12,582 nt of DNA from an uncultured Lachnospiraceae bacterium (GTDB lineage: Bacteria; Bacillota_A; Clostridia; Lachnospirales; Lachnospiraceae): assembly GCA_902767195.1 (NCBI GenBank), contig CACXGS010000314.1, forward strand, positions 1 to 12,582, read 5' to 3'. The translations under genes were made by a program, and so were the position numbers. Shown piece after piece: positions 1,456-12,582 of the stretch. Below the pieces are notes generated by a model. The model had not been told where the DNA came from. It saw only the letters and a program-made list of their open reading frames with translations, and ran no database searches. How positions within the stretch are numbered: position 1 is the stretch's first letter; each line of letters begins with the position of its first letter.

Positions 1456-4095
1456 TTATGCCAGCTGGGCAGATGCCAGTTCTACGGCTTTATCCAGGGC
1501 ATCTTTAATCCCTGCCGGATTCTTTCCGCCGGCCTGAGCCATGTTGGGACGTCCGCCGCCGCCGCCACCGACAAGTTTAGCAGCGTCTTTGATGATCTTC
1601 CCGGCATGAGCACCGGCTTTTACCGCGTCATCAGTAGCGGTAACAATCAGGTTGACCTTATCCCCGTTGTCAGAAGCCAGGACAACAACTCCGCTGCCTA
1701 TCTTGACCTTAAGGTCATCGGACAGGGTACGAAGGGCGTTCATGTCTACATTCTTCACGGATACCGGAAGGATCTTCCACTCGCCGGATTCCACCACATT
1801 GCCCATCACATCAGCGGCCTCACTCTTGGCAATCTGATCTTTGAGCTTCTCATTCTCAGAAGAGAGGGCCTTGATCTCATCCAACAGAGCGTGGATCCGG
1901 GATGTCAGGTTATGAGGCTCTGTTCTGGCTGCCCTGGCTGCTTCCAGAAGAGTATCTTCTTCCTCGTGATAATAATGAAGAACATTATCTCCCGTAAGAG
2001 CTTCCACACGGCGCACGCCTGCTGCTACCGCTCCCTCGGAAAGGATCTTAAATGTCTTGATATCGCCTGTATTCCGGACATGGGTTCCTCCGCAGAACTC
2101 TTTGGAAAAGTCTCCCATGCTGACTACACGGACCTTCTCCCCGTACTTCTCTCCGAAAAGAGCCATGGCGCCGGTCTTTTTGGCCTCATCCACAGTCATG
2201 ATATCGGTAGATACCGGAATGGCCTCTTCAATCTTATCGTTAACGATATCTTCTACTGCCTTCATCTCTTCAGGAGTCAGAGCCTGGAAATGAGTGAAGT
2301 CAAAACGAAGACGGTCTTTATCCACATAGGAACCCTTCTGTTCTACATGGGTTCCAAGAACTGTACGAAGAGCTTTCTGAAGAAGGTGGGTAGCGCTGTG
2401 GTTCTTTGCGGTATCCCCGCGCTGCTTCTTATTGATGGCCAGAGTAACCTGGTCACCGGTCTTAAACATTCCTCTGCTAACACGGCCGATATGTCCTACT
2501 TTGTCACCCAGAAGCTTAACGGTATCTTCCACCACAAACTCCCCGTCGGGACCGGTGATGATTCCGGAATCAGCATGCTGGCCGCCGCCGGTAGCGTAGA
2601 AAGGTGTTGCCTCTACAAAAATGGTTCCCACCTGTCCGTCCGTCAGGGCTTCTGTAATCTCCTCTTCCGTGGTCATCACGGTGATGGGGGAGGTGTATTC
2701 CGAATGATCATAGCCCACAAACTGTGTCGTGATTCTGGGGTCGATGGACTCGTATACCGTCACGTCGGCTCCCATATAATTCGTAACCTTTCTGGCATTT
2801 CTGGCCTTGACCCTCTGCTCTTCCATCAGGGCCTTAAAACCATCTTCATCGATGGAGAAGCCTTTCTCTTCAAGGATCTCTCTGGTGAGGTCCAGCGGGA
2901 ATCCGTAGGTATCATAAAGCTTAAAGGCATCTTCTCCGGAAAGCTCTTTACTTCCCTCGCTGACCATCTTAGCTTCCAGTTCATCCAGAATCTTCAGGCC
3001 CTGGTCAATGGTTTTGTTAAAGCTGTTCTCTTCCTGGGTAAGAACCTTAAAGATCAGTTCTCTCTTCTCGAAGAGTTCGGGATAGCCGTCTTTGGATCCC
3101 TCAATCACGGTCTTGCTGAGCTCTGCAAGGAACTTGCCCTCGATCCCCAGAAGACGTCCGTGCCTTGCCGCACGACGGATAATTCGACGCAGAACATAGC
3201 CCCGGCCCTCGTTGCTGGGGGTGATACCGTCGGAAATCATAAAGGTGGCAGACCGGATATGGTCAGTAATCAGACGAATGGAAACGTCATCTTCATAGTC
3301 TGTATGGTACGTCTTGCCGGCCATCTCACAGACCTTGTCCCTAAGAGAGCGGATCGTGTCCACATCAAAAATGGAATCCACTTCCTGGACAACAACAGCC
3401 AGACGCTCCAGTCCCATACCGGTGTCAATGTTCTTATTCTGAAGAGTGGTGTAATTGTTGTGCCCGTCATTCTCGAACTGGGTAAATACATTATTCCACA
3501 CCTCAATATAACGGTCACAGTCACAGCCGACCGTACAATCCGGCTTTCCGCAGCCGTATTTCTCACCACGGTCATAATAAATCTCGGAACAGGGACCGCA
3601 GGGACCTGCGCCATGCTCCCAGAAATTATCTTCCTTACCGAAACGGAAAATACGTTCCGGGGCGATGCCCACATCGTCTCTCCAGATGTCAAAAGCCTCA
3701 TCATCATCCAGATATACAGAAGGGTACAGACGGTCCGGATCCAGACCTACTGTCTCTGTCAGGAACTCCCAGGACCACGCAATCGCCTCTTTCTTAAAAT
3801 AATCTCCGAAAGAGAAATTGCCCAGCATCTCAAAGAAGGTGCCATGACGGGCTGTCTTTCCCACGTTCTCAATATCTCCGGTACGAATACACTTCTGGCA
3901 GGTGGCCACCCTGCGTCTGGGCGGGATCTCCTGTCCGGTGAAATATGGCTTTAAAGGAGCCATACCGGCATTGATCAGCAGAAGACTGTTATCATTATGC
4001 GGCACCAGCGAAAAGCTGTTCATTATAAGGTGTCCTTTGCTTTCGAAAAAGTCCAGAAACATTTTTCGAAGTTCGTTTACTCCGTATTTTTTCAA
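1456..4095 (-). CDS. alaS: Alanine-tRNA ligase, 879 aa
   Basis: Cytoplasmic class II synthetase that charges tRNA-Ala. In order it shows the aminoacylation core (about 1-250, with RVATCQKCIRTGDIENVGKT and the HGTFFEMLGNFSFGDYF segment), a tRNA-recognition helical region, the editing domain with zinc-binding HSATH (His566, His570) and CGGTH (Cys668, His672), and a C-terminal C-Ala domain ending with a glycine-rich GGGGGGRPNMAQAGG segment (843-857). A cysteine cluster at 182-193 (Cys182, 187, 191, 193) is an insertion seen in a subset of bacterial AlaRS and may bind zinc. Length fits the family (E. coli 876). The start is a rare TTG at 4093-4095, chosen because GGAGGG lies 7 bases upstream and the N-terminus then aligns. 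It is downstream of the 47-aa peptide gene and probably shares its promoter. No T-box leader is visible upstream. Confidence 0.98.
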   Translation of the reverse strand: MKKYGVNELRKMFLDFFESKGHLIMNSFSLVPHNDNSLLLINAGMAPLKPYFTGQEIPPRRRVATCQKCIRTGDIENVGKTARHGTFFEMLGNFSFGDYFKKEAIAWSWEFLTETVGLDPDRLYPSVYLDDDEAFDIWRDDVGIAPERIFRFGKEDNFWEHGAGPCGPCSEIYYDRGEKYGCGKPDCTVGCDCDRYIEVWNNVFTQFENDGHNNYTTLQNKNIDTGMGLERLAVVVQEVDSIFDVDTIRSLRDKVCEMAGKTYHTDYEDDVSIRLITDHIRSATFMISDGITPSNEGRGYVLRRIIRRAARHGRLLGIEGKFLAELSKTVIEGSKDGYPELFEKRELIFKVLTQEENSFNKTIDQGLKILDELEAKMVSEGSKELSGEDAFKLYDTYGFPLDLTREILEEKGFSIDEDGFKALMEEQRVKARNARKVTNYMGADVTVYESIDPRITTQFVGYDHSEYTSPITVMTTEEEITEALTDGQVGTIFVEATPFYATGGGQHADSGIITGPDGEFVVEDTVKLLGDKVGHIGRVSRGMFKTGDQVTLAINKKQRGDTAKNHSATHLLQKALRTVLGTHVEQKGSYVDKDRLRFDFTHFQALTPEEMKAVEDIVNDKIEEAIPVSTDIMTVDEAKKTGAMALFGEKYGEKVRVVSMGDFSKEFCGGTHVRNTGDIKTFKILSEGAVAAGVRRVEALTGDNVLHYYHEEEDTLLEAARAARTEPHNLTSRIHALLDEIKALSSENEKLKDQIAKSEAADVMGNVVESGEWKILPVSVKNVDMNALRTLSDDLKVKIGSGVVVLASDNGDKVNLIVTATDDAVKAGAHAGKIIKDAAKLVGGGGGGRPNMAQAGGKNPAGIKDALDKAVELASAQLA

Positions 4096-8275: not shown

Positions 8276-9541
8276 CTAATACTCCTCCCTGAATTCCGCC
8301 AGGGATTTGATTTCCCGGTTCCCTTTTATAAAATCATGGACAATCACCTGATCCCCTGACAGAATCAGAAGGCAATCGGCCCCCATACCCTTCACATAGT
8401 CCTGATAATCCTGATCATTATTTTCCCCACAACGGCACAGGAGCTCCGTCCTGATCCCCCTTCGGCGGAGGTCTTTTGCAAGACGGATCGCCGTTTCCCG
8501 TTTCTCATGGTCATAGAGCAGGGAAGTATATCCGTAATCCCGGATAGATATGGGTATATCCTGTCTGGACAGGGCCGCCATCAGCTCATCCACCAGGATC
8601 GTAAAACCTATCGCCGGCGCGGATTTCCCGAAAAGGGCCAGCAGGTTATCATAACGGCCGCCCTTTCCGATGGCATCTCCGGTCCCGTAGGTATAACCCT
8701 GGAAAATGATACCTGTATAATAATCATAGTGATTGACCATACCCAGGTCAAAGCGGACGTACCGCTCATAACCGTACATACAGAGGACCTCGTAAACTTC
8801 CCTGAGACGGGCAATCGCATTCCTGCAGCCATCTCCCACAGAAAGCTCACAGGCCCGGTCAAGCATAGACACATCTCCAAAAAGCTCATGGTAATGAAGA
8901 AGGAGCTTCCGGTAGGGCTCATCCATTTTCACATCATTTAAAAGAAGCTCCATAGCCAGGGAATTCCTGTTTTCGATATTCTCATGAATCTTATCCCGGA
9001 CCCCTTCATCCACAGGCAATCCTTCAATCACCGACCGGTAAAAACCCGCTTCACAGATATCCACACAGAACTCATTAAGACCAGCCTCCAGAAAACACTC
9101 GATCATCATAACAATAGCTTCGGCATCTCCCTCCGGGCTGTTATCATTAATGTATTCCGCACCAAGCTCTCTCTTCTCCGTCAGTTTCCCCTGATAGCCT
9201 TCATGGTTGATAAAAGTCCTGCCCTCATAAGAAAGACGGATCGGATAGTGACAGTCACTGTAATATTTAGCCACACTCCGGGCAACAGACGGAGTCATAT
9301 CCGGCCGCAGCACCAGCGTATTGTTGTTGCGGTCAAAAAACTTAAACATCTCCCTGGAACTAACCGTCCCTGTATCACTATTGAAGATGTCAAAGAATTC
9401 AAAAATCGGGGTGGTGATATCCTGATAACCGTAAAGGTTAAGAACACGGTGCAGTCTACCCATCACCGCGTCTCTCTTCTTCCACTCCGAGCTGTAAATA
9501 TCCCGGACTCCCTGTGGTGTGTGAAGCAGCTTTTCAATCAT
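8276..9541 (-). CDS. hisZ: ATP phosphoribosyltransferase regulatory subunit HisZ, 421 aa
   Basis: A catalytically dead relative of histidyl-tRNA synthetase that joins short HisG and carries the histidine-sensing site. Seen: class II synthetase motif-2-like region GRTFINHEGYQGKLTEKRELGAEYI (107-131), RPDMTPSVARSVAKYY (about 79-94) where true HisRS has RPEGT, and IGKGGRYDNLLALFG with APAIGFTI near the end. The RPDMT form and the pairing with a short HisG argue for HisZ over HisS. I chose ATG at 9539-9541 because AGGAGG lies 10 bases upstream; a TTG three codons earlier sits only one base from that site. First gene of the his operon, with a promoter just upstream. Confidence 0.95.
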   Translation of the reverse strand: MIEKLLHTPQGVRDIYSSEWKKRDAVMGRLHRVLNLYGYQDITTPIFEFFDIFNSDTGTVSSREMFKFFDRNNNTLVLRPDMTPSVARSVAKYYSDCHYPIRLSYEGRTFINHEGYQGKLTEKRELGAEYINDNSPEGDAEAIVMMIECFLEAGLNEFCVDICEAGFYRSVIEGLPVDEGVRDKIHENIENRNSLAMELLLNDVKMDEPYRKLLLHYHELFGDVSMLDRACELSVGDGCRNAIARLREVYEVLCMYGYERYVRFDLGMVNHYDYYTGIIFQGYTYGTGDAIGKGGRYDNLLALFGKSAPAIGFTILVDELMAALSRQDIPISIRDYGYTSLLYDHEKRETAIRLAKDLRRRGIRTELLCRCGENNDQDYQDYVKGMGADCLLILSGDQVIVHDFIKGNREIKSLAEFREEY

Positions 9542-9692: not shown

Positions 9693-10130
9693 TTAATTCC
9701 AATGCATCTCGTCCATATCATCAAGCTCCATGGGATCGATATGGGCGGCAGAACCATACATATCCTTTCCGACAACTTTCTTGAGTTCCCTTTCCTCCTC
9801 GATCATGTCACTGATCAGGCGTTTCACTTCATCGGGATTCTTTATATTCTGTAGTCGGATCACCGGGGTGGAACGGTCCTTGGTATTCATCTCGATGGAT
9901 CCCGTCCCGAAGATTCGCTGGCCCAGAGACCGGGTCATTGTGATGTCCATGATACGGTAGAGGAGACATTCATCCTCTCTGGAATTCAGGAAACCGGACT
10001 TAATATATATTCTCTCATTGGCTACACGGTAACTGGTAAAGCTAAGAGGAAACCACATGTGATGTTTACGGTCTGACCATATGATCTGGTCTGATTTCCT
10101 TCTTACTCTTGCATCCTGTACAGCTGACAT
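9693..10130 (-). CDS. Bacterial PH-domain protein, 145 aa, function unknown
   Basis: A small cytoplasmic protein with one bacterial PH-like domain (bPH_2/YdbS type, about residues 25-115). The recognisable pattern is FTSYRVANERIYIKSGFLNS (31-50), ECLLYRIMDITMTRSLGQRIFGTGSI (54-79), then DRSTPVIRLQNIKNPDEVKRLI (85-106). The acidic tail (about 106-143: EEERE, MELDDMDEM) is not part of the domain. No signal peptide or membrane helix is seen, unlike many family members that carry two helices before the domain. ATG at 10128-10130 follows GGGAGG at 6 bases. It is monocistronic with a strong promoter and the long hairpin terminator, and divergent from rqcH. The family has no settled function; ligand and partner are unknown. 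Confidence 0.8.
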   Translation of the reverse strand: MSAVQDARVRRKSDQIIWSDRKHHMWFPLSFTSYRVANERIYIKSGFLNSREDECLLYRIMDITMTRSLGQRIFGTGSIEMNTKDRSTPVIRLQNIKNPDEVKRLISDMIEEERELKKVVGKDMYGSAAHIDPMELDDMDEMHWN

Positions 10131-10350: not shown

Positions 10351-12102
10351 ATGGCATTTGACGGTATTGTCATAGCAAATATAGTACATGATATGAGAAG
10401 GCTTCTGACAGGAGGCCGGATCTATAAGATCTACCAGCCGGAGAATGATGAGCTTCTTCTGGTGATAAAGAATCAGAAAGAAACCTATCGTCTTCAGATC
10501 TCTGCCGGGGCCAGTCTGCCCCTGATCCGCTTTGTTCAGGATAATAAAAAGAATCCTCTGACTGCCCCTAATTTCTGCATGCTTCTTCGAAAACACATCG
10601 GAAACGGCAGGATTCTGGAGGTCGCCCAGCCACGTATGGAGCGAATCGTGGAAATGACCATCGAACATCTGGACGAGATGGGCGATGTGCGCAGAAAAAA
10701 ACTGGTAACAGAGATCATGGGAAAACACAGTAATATTATCTTTTTGGATGAGGAAGACACGATTATTGACAGCATCAAGCATATCTCTGCCCAGATCAGC
10801 TCCGTGAGGGAGGTTCTTCCCGGGAGAAGCTATGTGGCTCCACCCGACCAGGGGAAAATCGCTCTTGCCGACCTGAGTCTTTCCTGGGCACAGGAAACTC
10901 TTTTTAAGAAAGCGCTGCCGGTCCGAAAAGCGATTTACACCGGCATTGCCGGCATCAGCCCTCTCTTTGCCGGAGAACTCTGTTACCGGGCCGGTCTTGA
11001 TGCCGATGCGTCCGCCGCTTCCCTGACGGATCAGGATCGGTCTGCCCTTTACGGACAGCTCACCCTTCTCGAGCAGCAGATTGAGGAAGGCGCATTCTGC
11101 CCCAATATTGTCTATGAGGGAAAGGTCCCGAAAGAATTTGCCTCCTTCCCACTGACTATGTACAGAGATTACGTATCGAAATCCTTCGATTCTATTTCTG
11201 ATGTGCTGGCTACCTTCTATTCCGAAAGGGAAACGATTACCAGGATCCGTCAGAAATCAGTGGATCTGCGCCATGTCATACAAAACGCTCTGGAACGAAC
11301 TGCGAAAAAATATGATCTCCAGAGAAGACAGTTAAAGGATACGGAAAAAAGAGACAGTTACAGGATCTACGGGGAGCTGCTCCACACCTATGGTTACAGT
11401 GCTGAGCCGGGACAGAAAGAACTGACCTGCATCAACTATTATGACGGACAGGAGATCACCATTCCCCTTGATCCCACTCTCACTGCTCAGGAAAATGCAA
11501 AGAAATATTTTGACCGCTACGGGAAGCTGAAGAGAACCTATGAGGCCCTCACCTCTCTGGTTGAAGAGACAGCCCGGTCCCTTTCCCATCTGGAGTCCAT
11601 CAATACTTCTCTGGAGATTGCCAGAGAGGAGGAAGACCTGGCCATGATCCGCCAGGAGCTCATGGATTACGGTTATATGAAACGGCACGGACAGGCGGGA
11701 AAGAAACGCAGGACTCCAAAGAGCAAACCTCTTCATTACATATCCTCAGACGGTTTTCATATGTATGTAGGGAAAAACAATTATCAGAATGATGAGTTGT
11801 CTTTCAAGTTAGCCAACGGAAAGGACATGTGGTTCCATGCAAAAAAAATGCCCGGCTCTCACGTAATCGTGAGGCTGGGAACCGCAGACGAACTGCCGGA
11901 CCGGACATACGAAGAAGCCGCCCGACTGGCAGCATACTATTCCAGCGGACGGGACAACCCCAAGGTGGAAGTGGATTACACCAAACGGCGGCAGCTTAAG
12001 AAACCTCCCCATGCCGTGCCGGGTTATGTGATCTATCATCAGAACTGGTCCATGTCGATCGAACCGGATATCACAGGGATTGAGGAAATAACGGAAAACT
12101 GA
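10351..12102 (+). CDS. rqcH: RqcH, NFACT-family ribosome quality-control factor, 583 aa
   Basis: Homolog of eukaryotic NEMF/Rqc2 and B. subtilis RqcH, which binds stalled 50S-peptidyl-tRNA and recruits tRNA-Ala to add C-terminal alanine tails for degradation. Older annotations call it fibronectin-binding protein A. Seen: NFACT-N start MAFDGIVIANIVHDM, EIMGKHSNIIFLD (121-133), helical and coiled-coil arms (about 295-345 and 390-445) around LDPTLTAQENAKKYFDRYGKLKRT (373-396), and the NFACT-R domain (about 461-575) with SDGFHMYVGKNNYQND and KDMWFHAKKMPGSHVIV (491-507). The Asp-Arg tRNA-contact pair (D97/R98 in B. subtilis) reads Glu97-Arg98 here. Length fits the family. ATG follows GAGGAAAT. It is the only plus-strand protein gene, and no U-tract terminator is seen after its stop. 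Confidence 0.96.
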   Translation: MAFDGIVIANIVHDMRRLLTGGRIYKIYQPENDELLLVIKNQKETYRLQISAGASLPLIRFVQDNKKNPLTAPNFCMLLRKHIGNGRILEVAQPRMERIVEMTIEHLDEMGDVRRKKLVTEIMGKHSNIIFLDEEDTIIDSIKHISAQISSVREVLPGRSYVAPPDQGKIALADLSLSWAQETLFKKALPVRKAIYTGIAGISPLFAGELCYRAGLDADASAASLTDQDRSALYGQLTLLEQQIEEGAFCPNIVYEGKVPKEFASFPLTMYRDYVSKSFDSISDVLATFYSERETITRIRQKSVDLRHVIQNALERTAKKYDLQRRQLKDTEKRDSYRIYGELLHTYGYSAEPGQKELTCINYYDGQEITIPLDPTLTAQENAKKYFDRYGKLKRTYEALTSLVEETARSLSHLESINTSLEIAREEEDLAMIRQELMDYGYMKRHGQAGKKRRTPKSKPLHYISSDGFHMYVGKNNYQNDELSFKLANGKDMWFHAKKMPGSHVIVRLGTADELPDRTYEEAARLAAYYSSGRDNPKVEVDYTKRRQLKKPPHAVPGYVIYHQNWSMSIEPDITGIEEITEN

Positions 12103-12108
12103 CATTCC

Positions 12109-12130
12109 GGGGCAGCCACGCTGATACCCC
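12109..12130. other. Hairpin between the rqcH stop and RNA element A
   Basis: GGGGCAGC (12109-12116), loop CAC, GCTG (12120-12123), a 3-base bulge, then CCCC (12127-12130). Neither strand has a proper T run after it, so it is at best a weak terminator for rqcH. Its CCCC overlaps the strand that closes the outer helix of RNA element A, so the two pairings exclude each other. Confidence 0.55.
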
Positions 12131-12325
12131 CAATCGACAGACAACCGGTTCCGTCGCAGAGGCGTTGCCCACTCCCGGTAAGCTATCTGCCTGCTACGAC
12201 TAAGGCGGCTGAGGCATTCACGAAGGATTTGTTCTTACCTCAGCCGCCAAGTCTTTGCGGCAGAGGATCTTACCTCTGTTCCAGCAAAGCCTCTGCTTAC
12301 GGAATCCGGTTGCCGCCGACTGGGG
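12128..12325 (-). ncRNA. Candidate structured RNA element A, complete, about 200 nt
   Basis: Nested helices, given by position: P1 12128-12136 with 12317-12325 (one mismatch); P2 12142-12153 with 12300-12312 (one bulge); P3 12156-12163 with 12289-12296; P4 12177-12182 with 12269-12274; P5 12186-12191 with 12259-12264; a GAC/GTC pair at 12198 and 12251; P6 12204-12214 with 12238-12248, capped by a 23-base loop. Internal loops hold sequence shared with copy B (12162-12173, 12216-12233, 12274-12291). No open frame fits. Strand is inferred: two A-C mismatches on the plus strand (12133/12320 and 12141/12313) become G-U pairs on the minus strand, and the loops are purine-rich on that strand. No good promoter was found. 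The class is not identified; the raiA-motif RNA of Firmicutes (about this size) is one candidate to test. Confidence 0.7.
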
Positions 12326-12411
12326 TAAACAGCCTCCGGTTCAAATCCTTTTTTGCAACTACCCAATAAAGATCTCTTCAGGGTTGGCGTGGAGATAGTG
12401 TTTGGTTGCAT
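12326..12411. other. Spacer between RNA elements A and B; no gene seen
   Basis: The 86-base stretch holds a run of six T (12349-12354) and a possible hairpin (TGCAAC at 12354-12359 with GTTGCA at 12405-12410, and ATCTC at 12372-12376 with GAGAT at 12392-12396 inside it). If A is on minus and B on plus, divergent promoters should be here, but I see no convincing -35/-10 pair on either strand. Confidence 0.5.
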
Positions 12412-12582
12412 TACCTACCAGTAGACAGACAGTTGGGTTTCCGAAAGCGAAGGCTTTGCAGGAACAGAGCCGAGATCCACTGCTTACGTAGACAAGGGTT
12501 CCGGGATATAAACAAATCGTTCGTGAATATCCCGGAACCCTATGTCGTAGTTAGCAGTTAGCTCGGCGGTAGTGGGCAACGC
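12412..12582 (+). ncRNA. Candidate structured RNA element B, inverted relative of A, cut by window end
   Basis: Read on the plus strand it carries the same order of parts as A read on the minus strand. P2 5' strand is at about 12430-12443 and P3 5' strand GCGAAGGC at 12447-12454. The shared block GGCTTTGC-N-GGAACAGAG follows at 12452-12469. P4 pairs 12469-12474 with 12562-12567, and P5 pairs 12479-12484 with 12553-12558. P6 pairs 12491-12509 with 12527-12546, with one bulged A, and is capped by a loop containing ACAAATC-N-TTCGTGAA. The shared block AGTGGGCAACGC (12571-12582) comes last. The 3' strands of P3, P2 and P1 lie beyond the window. Paired segments differ from A yet still pair, and loops are conserved, as expected for a structured RNA. 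Confidence 0.68.

Follow-up and report, generated by a model that had tools for sequence, protein, structure and literature searches.

Dispersed intergenic palindromes of a Clostridia family, often placed behind genes, with arms that appear to be kept complementary in DNA

The stretch of DNA analysed here (12,582 nucleotides; hereafter the window) ends in two inverted copies, A and B, of a long hairpin-forming sequence downstream of rqcH, and raises the question of what keeps their arms paired. The initial annotation read them as copies of an unassigned structured RNA, selected for RNA folding. With confidence only slightly better than even, we favour the view that A and B belong to an unnamed family of non-coding palindromes, about 180–240 nt long and dispersed between genes, whose arms are kept complementary in DNA and which would function as a folded DNA hairpin or cruciform.

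The gene preceding copy A, rqcH (10351–12102, plus strand), encodes an NFACT protein (Pfam NFACT_N, E 1.5e-151, and NFACT-R_1) and ends in a TGA codon at 12100–12102. Copy A occupies positions 12128–12326 of the plus strand and is enclosed by the outer stem CCCCA..TGGGG; its predicted fold reaches −104.7 kcal/mol (z −9.5). The core of copy A (12176–12282) comprises helix P4 (GGTAAG at 12177–12182, pairing with CTTACC at 12269–12274), helix P5 (TCTGCC at 12186–12191, pairing with GGCAGA at 12259–12264), a three-by-three loop and the variable apical hairpin P6 (12204–12248). Copy B lies on the minus strand, tail to tail with A, at 12411–12582, its 3′ limit being estimated; it possesses a core at 12461–12568 and a 15-bp P6 apical hairpin at 12495–12541, recognised both as an inverted repeat and in the fold. 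Together with its 3′ flank, copy B folds at −85.9 kcal/mol (z −6.8). Covariance model R2 scores the cores of A and B at 64.8 bits (E 1.8e-17) and 75.9 bits (E 7.8e-21), respectively, scores that are not independent, as both copies are among the 40 sequences from which R2 was built. Model R1 also matched the window twice in antisense (46.6 and 46.5 bits); these matches, a product of the near-palindromic sequence, were dropped. The spacer between A and B (approximately 12327–12410), as read from its sequence, has no room for an ORF of 60 aa.

The window appears to be a complete metagenome contig, its length of 12,582 agreeing with that given in a protein record; copy B is cut off by the contig end at 12582 and its 5′ outer arm is missing. 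Contigs of another genome, G639, likewise end at or inside copies (L313, L314, L317 and L321), suggesting why the contig of the window stops inside B; the element probably breaks short-read assemblies. Elsewhere in the window, a small protein with a bacterial PH domain (bPH_2; 9696–10130, minus strand) is encoded between rqcH and genes that we take to be his genes. Positions 1161–1422, presumably a conserved small ribosomal protein gene, are 80% identical to a stretch near a copy in genome G604 and are not part of the element.

Copies A and B have their loops in common and differ in their helices. Among the 40 pairs of the core, 13 are changed on both sides, none is changed on one side only and none is broken. 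No shuffle out of 500 reached 13 of 40, and sliding the partner by 1–3 columns left at most two double changes. Changes on both sides affect three of six pairs in P4, two of six in P5 and six of the 11 pairs in the shared part of P6, which confirms the two structured inverted copies with compensatory changes in these helices that had been described from the sequence.

The assignment to no known class also stands, as the window yields no Rfam family at the gathering score; at a limit of E 10 it gives four matches, to eukaryotic RNA families only. Rfam 15 contains raiA, HEARO, ROOL, GOLLD and OLE, so that the raiA-motif RNA put forward as a possible identity, along with the other four classes named for checking, finds no backing in this search. 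Across nine loci of relatives, the only Rfam match was a sub-threshold PyrG_leader lying outside the element, and in 14 stretches of the related genomes G347 and G634 no match falls on an element. With RNAs of the raiA, OLE and ROOL kind the element shares covarying helices around fixed loops; it is set apart from them by the lack of an Rfam match and by a mismatch pattern differing from that of RNA controls, described below. A literature search, mostly judged by titles, found no printed description of the element.

A covariance model built from A and B matches 17 of 397 genomes of one Clostridia family, presumably Lachnospiraceae; labels found among the closest rqcH relatives are Eubacterium sp., Eubacteriales bacterium and Clostridiales bacterium. 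Copies fitting an exact pattern number 22 in G347 and 10 in G271; this strict pattern, which misses many variants, matches 12 of the 17 carrier genomes with 0 to 22 copies per carrier, and a reversed control pattern produces two hits in all. The consensus core common to the matches consists of CNNNNAACTAACTGCTAACTNCGACTAA, a variable hairpin and then TTAGTCTNCGTAAGCAGTGGATTTNNNNCTCCGCTAA. The loop TTCACGAA-N-GATTTGTT, noted initially as shared by both copies, is indeed present in the two copies of the window, but it is absent from the family consensus and so characterises this pair only. Four of the five genomes from the genus of G347 contain copies that could be read; G637 gave a match to the neighbouring gene alone.

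Outside the family, model R2 (11 candidates scored per genome, with poor sensitivity) matched two of 391 genomes, G114 and G305, the former already included in the family set and the latter falling within its range. Motif scans of viral contigs returned 103, 12 and 17 stretches, all attributable to chance once neighbouring motifs were checked. A 17-base pattern scan of the genome collection gave nine loci, all judged chance, and blastn against plasmids and phages gave two and one short matches, respectively, also chance.

The whole element forms one long imperfect hairpin, and each copy is a single hairpin in the folds examined; the outer stem is specific to the locus, the core is conserved and the apical hairpin varies. 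Of 117 cores, 80 have a recognisable outer stem. This stem is preceded by GAC and followed by TG in many copies of G347, G634, G604, G474, G539 and G620, stem ends that are not evident in copy A. Outer stems differ between loci of one genome with complementarity retained, and between the orthologs L282 and L305 two outer-stem pairs have changed, both with full compensation. Mismatches at fixed positions mark the core: CTA facing GGAT, A·A, U·C, an N-N′ pair that varies freely and C·U.

The helices covary in 86 distinct copies, which align without gaps. Both U·C and C·U are fixed, each in 79 of the 86, and N-N′ is a Watson-Crick pair in 45 of 86 copies versus 22.2 expected. An alignment of 40 copies has 92.4% of its cells paired and contains 166 double changes versus 41.5 in shuffles; the number of pair types (42 versus 40.9 in shuffles) is not in excess. 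Homologs in both alignments preserve P4, P5 and P6, and the argument that drift alone would not keep this pairing holds. The core of one copy in G474 (L183) is a perfect palindrome, its 3′ arm being the exact reverse complement of its 5′ arm, and looks as if a templated correction had copied the 3′ arm from the 5′ arm.

An RNA under selection for its fold tolerates G·U pairs and not A·C mismatches on its own strand. The 80 distinct outer stems, aligned from their GAC end with neither mismatch credited, contain 1075 Watson-Crick pairs, 16 G·U, 17 A·C and 12 other combinations; after dereplication to 73 stems, the counts are 15 G·U and 16 A·C. As a control we used nine RNAs of G347 and G634 (a T-box, a group II piece, RAGATH-18, four tRNAs, SAM and 6S), which represent the ten Rfam matches in 14 stretches of these genomes after removal of one duplicate tRNA. 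They contain 210 Watson-Crick pairs, 23 G·U, 3 A·C and 20 other combinations, a distribution different from that of the outer stems (Fisher P 0.002); leaving out 6S, whose match fits poorly, gives 18 G·U and 2 A·C (P 0.003).

Because these independent outer stems, unlike the RNA controls, accept G·U no more readily than A·C, complementarity of the arms at the DNA level is supported and the pairing appears to be maintained in DNA; the earlier claim of selection on RNA folding is not supported by these counts. Pooling all helices of the 86 copies makes G·U the rarer class (22 versus 50 A·C, P 0.001), with an A·C excess that sits mainly in P4 (3 to 14) and P6 (0 to 20) and that related copies for the most part share by descent. 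Read literally, the pooled 22:50 leans to an RNA of the opposite strand, not of the strand folded in the initial annotation. Two tRNA controls were discarded: in one (8 tRNAs, 7 of them from carrier loci; G·U 14, A·C 0) the bracket line may mark paired positions only, and in a fixed-geometry recount of 10 tRNAs (G·U 13, A·C 5, other 19; P 0.14) at least four were misframed.

The 20-kb stretches of G347 and G634 hold 49 copies scoring at least 50 bits, none of them inside a called gene. A same-strand gene lies on the 5′ side of 35 of the 48 classifiable copies and is lacking for the other 13 (P 0.002), with about 11 loci counted in both genomes and G347 alone giving 18 of 25. The core begins 60–90 nt past the stop codon in 24 of the 35 sense copies, and the outer stem of such copies mostly begins 23–30 nt past it. 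The core of copy A starts 74 nt past the rqcH stop, inside this range. As most copies in these two related genomes lie directly behind a gene, the position of copy A next to rqcH is probably no accident. Beyond this genus, a wider set examined with crude gene calls shows a weak bias: a same-strand gene precedes 30 of 55 copies, and 6 of 56 overlap an ORF of 72–338 aa.

Upstream genes are diverse; 20 of 26 were scanned, and 19 of these match varied Pfam families, including EPSP synthase, DAHP synthetase, IF-1, amino acid kinase with ACT domains, solute-binding protein and carbohydrate phosphorylase. No preference for a replication strand was found in G347 (13 leading, 12 lagging). Where an intrinsic terminator would have a run of T immediately after its stem, the 3′ flanks of the element begin with TGTTT, TGGTTTT, TGTGTA and similar sequences. 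Separate terminator-like sites lie after 4 and before 3 of the 35 sense copies; the figures are 36 of 175 for control genes and 4 of 175 for shuffled sequences. The element would likely affect the 3′ end of the preceding gene.

Both flanks could be aligned with G634 for 14 of the 25 copies of G347. The copy is kept in G634 at 11 of these sites and is missing from three, all read as deletions, although sites without a copy are under-sampled here, as the G634 stretches were chosen around their own copies. One loss is a deletion between GGG repeats that left a 5′ remnant, another a deletion between GGGGA repeats that also removed about 200 nt of other sequence, and the third an internal deletion. 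No clean insertion and no target-site duplication was found in this comparison, in which G634 sites bearing a copy are over-sampled. Across the 11 orthologous copies, the element is 93.2% identical, the upstream flank 94.1% and the downstream flank 73.2%, the last value being lowered by misaligned stretches.

Copies also recombine with each other. The L308 copy of G634 is a recombinant of two direct copies of G347 (L279, 10056–15280) and has mismatched outer arms; the 5.2 kb between the two G347 copies, missing in G634, contains a YhgE/Pip-type gene and a second gene that looks similar by eye. L280 and L306 show a further difference between the two genomes, inside a degenerate neighbouring copy.

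The initial annotation named the paired ends of a mobile element as its main alternative. This idea is not supported: many copies are solitary, and no mobile gene was found in the four between-copy intervals that were read; they contain small ORFs, ordinary-looking genes or tandem repeats. Where copies do form close pairs (at most 2.4 kb apart, both scoring at least 30 bits), 16 of 17 pairs are tail to tail, one orthologous pair being counted twice; only L328 and L327 of G639, 1.5 kb from each other, form a direct pair. In L285, L296 and L152, each member of the pair lies behind its own convergent gene.

Several loci show further repeats near the copies. In L193 of G114 (2146–3518), two nearly identical copies lie in inverted orientation about 1.2 kb from each other, upstream of a gene that we take to be prfB-like; the sequence between them contains small ORFs only. 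In G473, the hairpin forms the opening half of a repeat unit some 550 nt long (L184, 1599–2150, and L151, 1435–1990), which is 93.9% identical over 574 nt and has TIR-like ends; its second half looks structured by eye. Minisatellite-like tandem arrays directly adjoin copies in L152 (733–1429) and L188 (1841–2311). In L285 of G347, a RAGATH-18 RNA and a group II intron piece (9230–9302 and 1622–1754) occur in the same 20-kb stretch as three copies, not adjacent to them.

Known repeats offer a closer parallel than known RNAs. YPAL (RU-2) of Yersinia and ERIC are described as dispersed intergenic palindromes of about 127–170 bp that fold as a hairpin; YPAL targets lie next to or span a dyad symmetry, and the elements are described as co-translated with upstream genes (PMC2229807; PMC2267715). 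The present element resembles them in being multi-copy, intergenic and non-coding, with each copy folding as a long hairpin. It occurs in another phylum and is set apart from YPAL by the published descriptions rather than by sequence comparison: here each copy has its own, compensated stem sequences, the placement behind stop codons is tight in two genomes, and target-site duplications and empty sites, as reported for YPAL, were not found among the G347 and G634 sites compared, which favour loci where G634 has a copy. On our best reading, the nearest known kind is an interspersed palindrome of the ERIC/YPAL type, with a function that we infer.

The tight placement behind stop codons also suits an RNA role. 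The element could be a 3′-UTR RNA element co-transcribed with the preceding gene, acting for example as a barrier to 3′ exonuclease or as a protein-binding site, and its covarying helices around fixed loops would agree with this, as would a conservation close to that of the upstream flank and above that of the downstream flank. The outer stems nevertheless lack the G·U bias of the RNA controls, and 13 of 48 copies lack a same-strand gene on their 5′ side; we regard this explanation as doubtful. The mismatch count is, on our best reading, the main reason for preferring action as DNA over action as RNA at the gene's 3′ end. Pairing in DNA could in turn be all there is: an interspersed palindrome, neutral or selfish, that was dispersed by transposition or gene conversion in the past and has no present function, its stems being renewed by template-switch correction only. 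Template switching in replication is a known way of keeping stems paired (PMC8794818), and the uneven number of exact-pattern copies among the 17 carriers, the losses by deletion and inter-copy recombination and the perfect core of L183 are in line with it. But correction alone would erase the fixed mismatches, yet U·C and C·U persist in nearly all copies, which argues that the core is under selection; orthologous copies are also better conserved than their downstream flank, even if the identity of the latter is lowered by misalignment. We therefore consider a functionless palindrome unlikely.

Integron attC sites carry R boxes of the form RYYYAAC/GTTRRRY at the base of their stem. None of 115 copies tested carries a complementary R-box pair at a distance of up to 80 nt from its core, and the copies are scattered. 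This makes it very unlikely that the element is an attC-like, folded-DNA recombination site moving units of a gene plus its hairpin, despite its position behind stop codons in gene orientation in two genomes and despite variable stems, fixed unpaired bases and a variable tip that recall attC sites, which are described as single strands folded into hairpins, in which unpaired bases are conserved and the terminal structure varies (PMC2727003). The G634 recombinant with its missing 5.2 kb might suggest such excision, but its mismatched outer arms are what ordinary recombination between repeats is expected to leave. Mobilisation by a Y1 (RAYT) transposase, as for REP, BIME or REPIN elements, is the most improbable of these explanations. 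Those elements are likewise multi-copy extragenic palindromes, some in inverted pairs, and RAYT transposases are described together with REP elements (PMC2817692); the present element is about five to six times longer than the REP lengths given in PMC2267715 and shows no RAYT linkage in the loci examined. Y1_Tnp matches are equally common in carriers and in other genomes (12 of 20 each), eight carriers, among them G638 and G604, have none, and a copy is found at one of 38 Y1 loci (some of them overlapping) and at none of eight RAYT-like loci (longer or weaker matches).

Returning to a palindrome that acts as folded DNA, we hypothesize that the family would have spread as a non-autonomous element and then lodged behind genes. 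Template-switch correction during replication would renew the complementarity of the arms, while the mismatched core may be kept as a DNA hairpin or cruciform bound by a putative protein. More tentatively, and with appreciably less confidence than in the general reading, the family could represent folded-DNA elements of a new class. Such a hairpin at a gene end would be recognised, as single-stranded DNA or as a cruciform, by its fixed mismatched core, in which one pair is free to vary (U·C, N-N′, C·U), and would stay paired through template-switch correction, so that its strong covariation would imitate that of a structured RNA.

Covariation is commonly regarded as the strongest sign of a functional RNA, and here it is accompanied by a mismatch spectrum that points to DNA. 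If this reading is true, comparing G·U with A·C would provide a cheap check on candidate structured RNAs that derive from palindromic repeats. For this Clostridia family, it would add a repeat comparable to ERIC and YPAL, often located at gene ends and a source of deletions.
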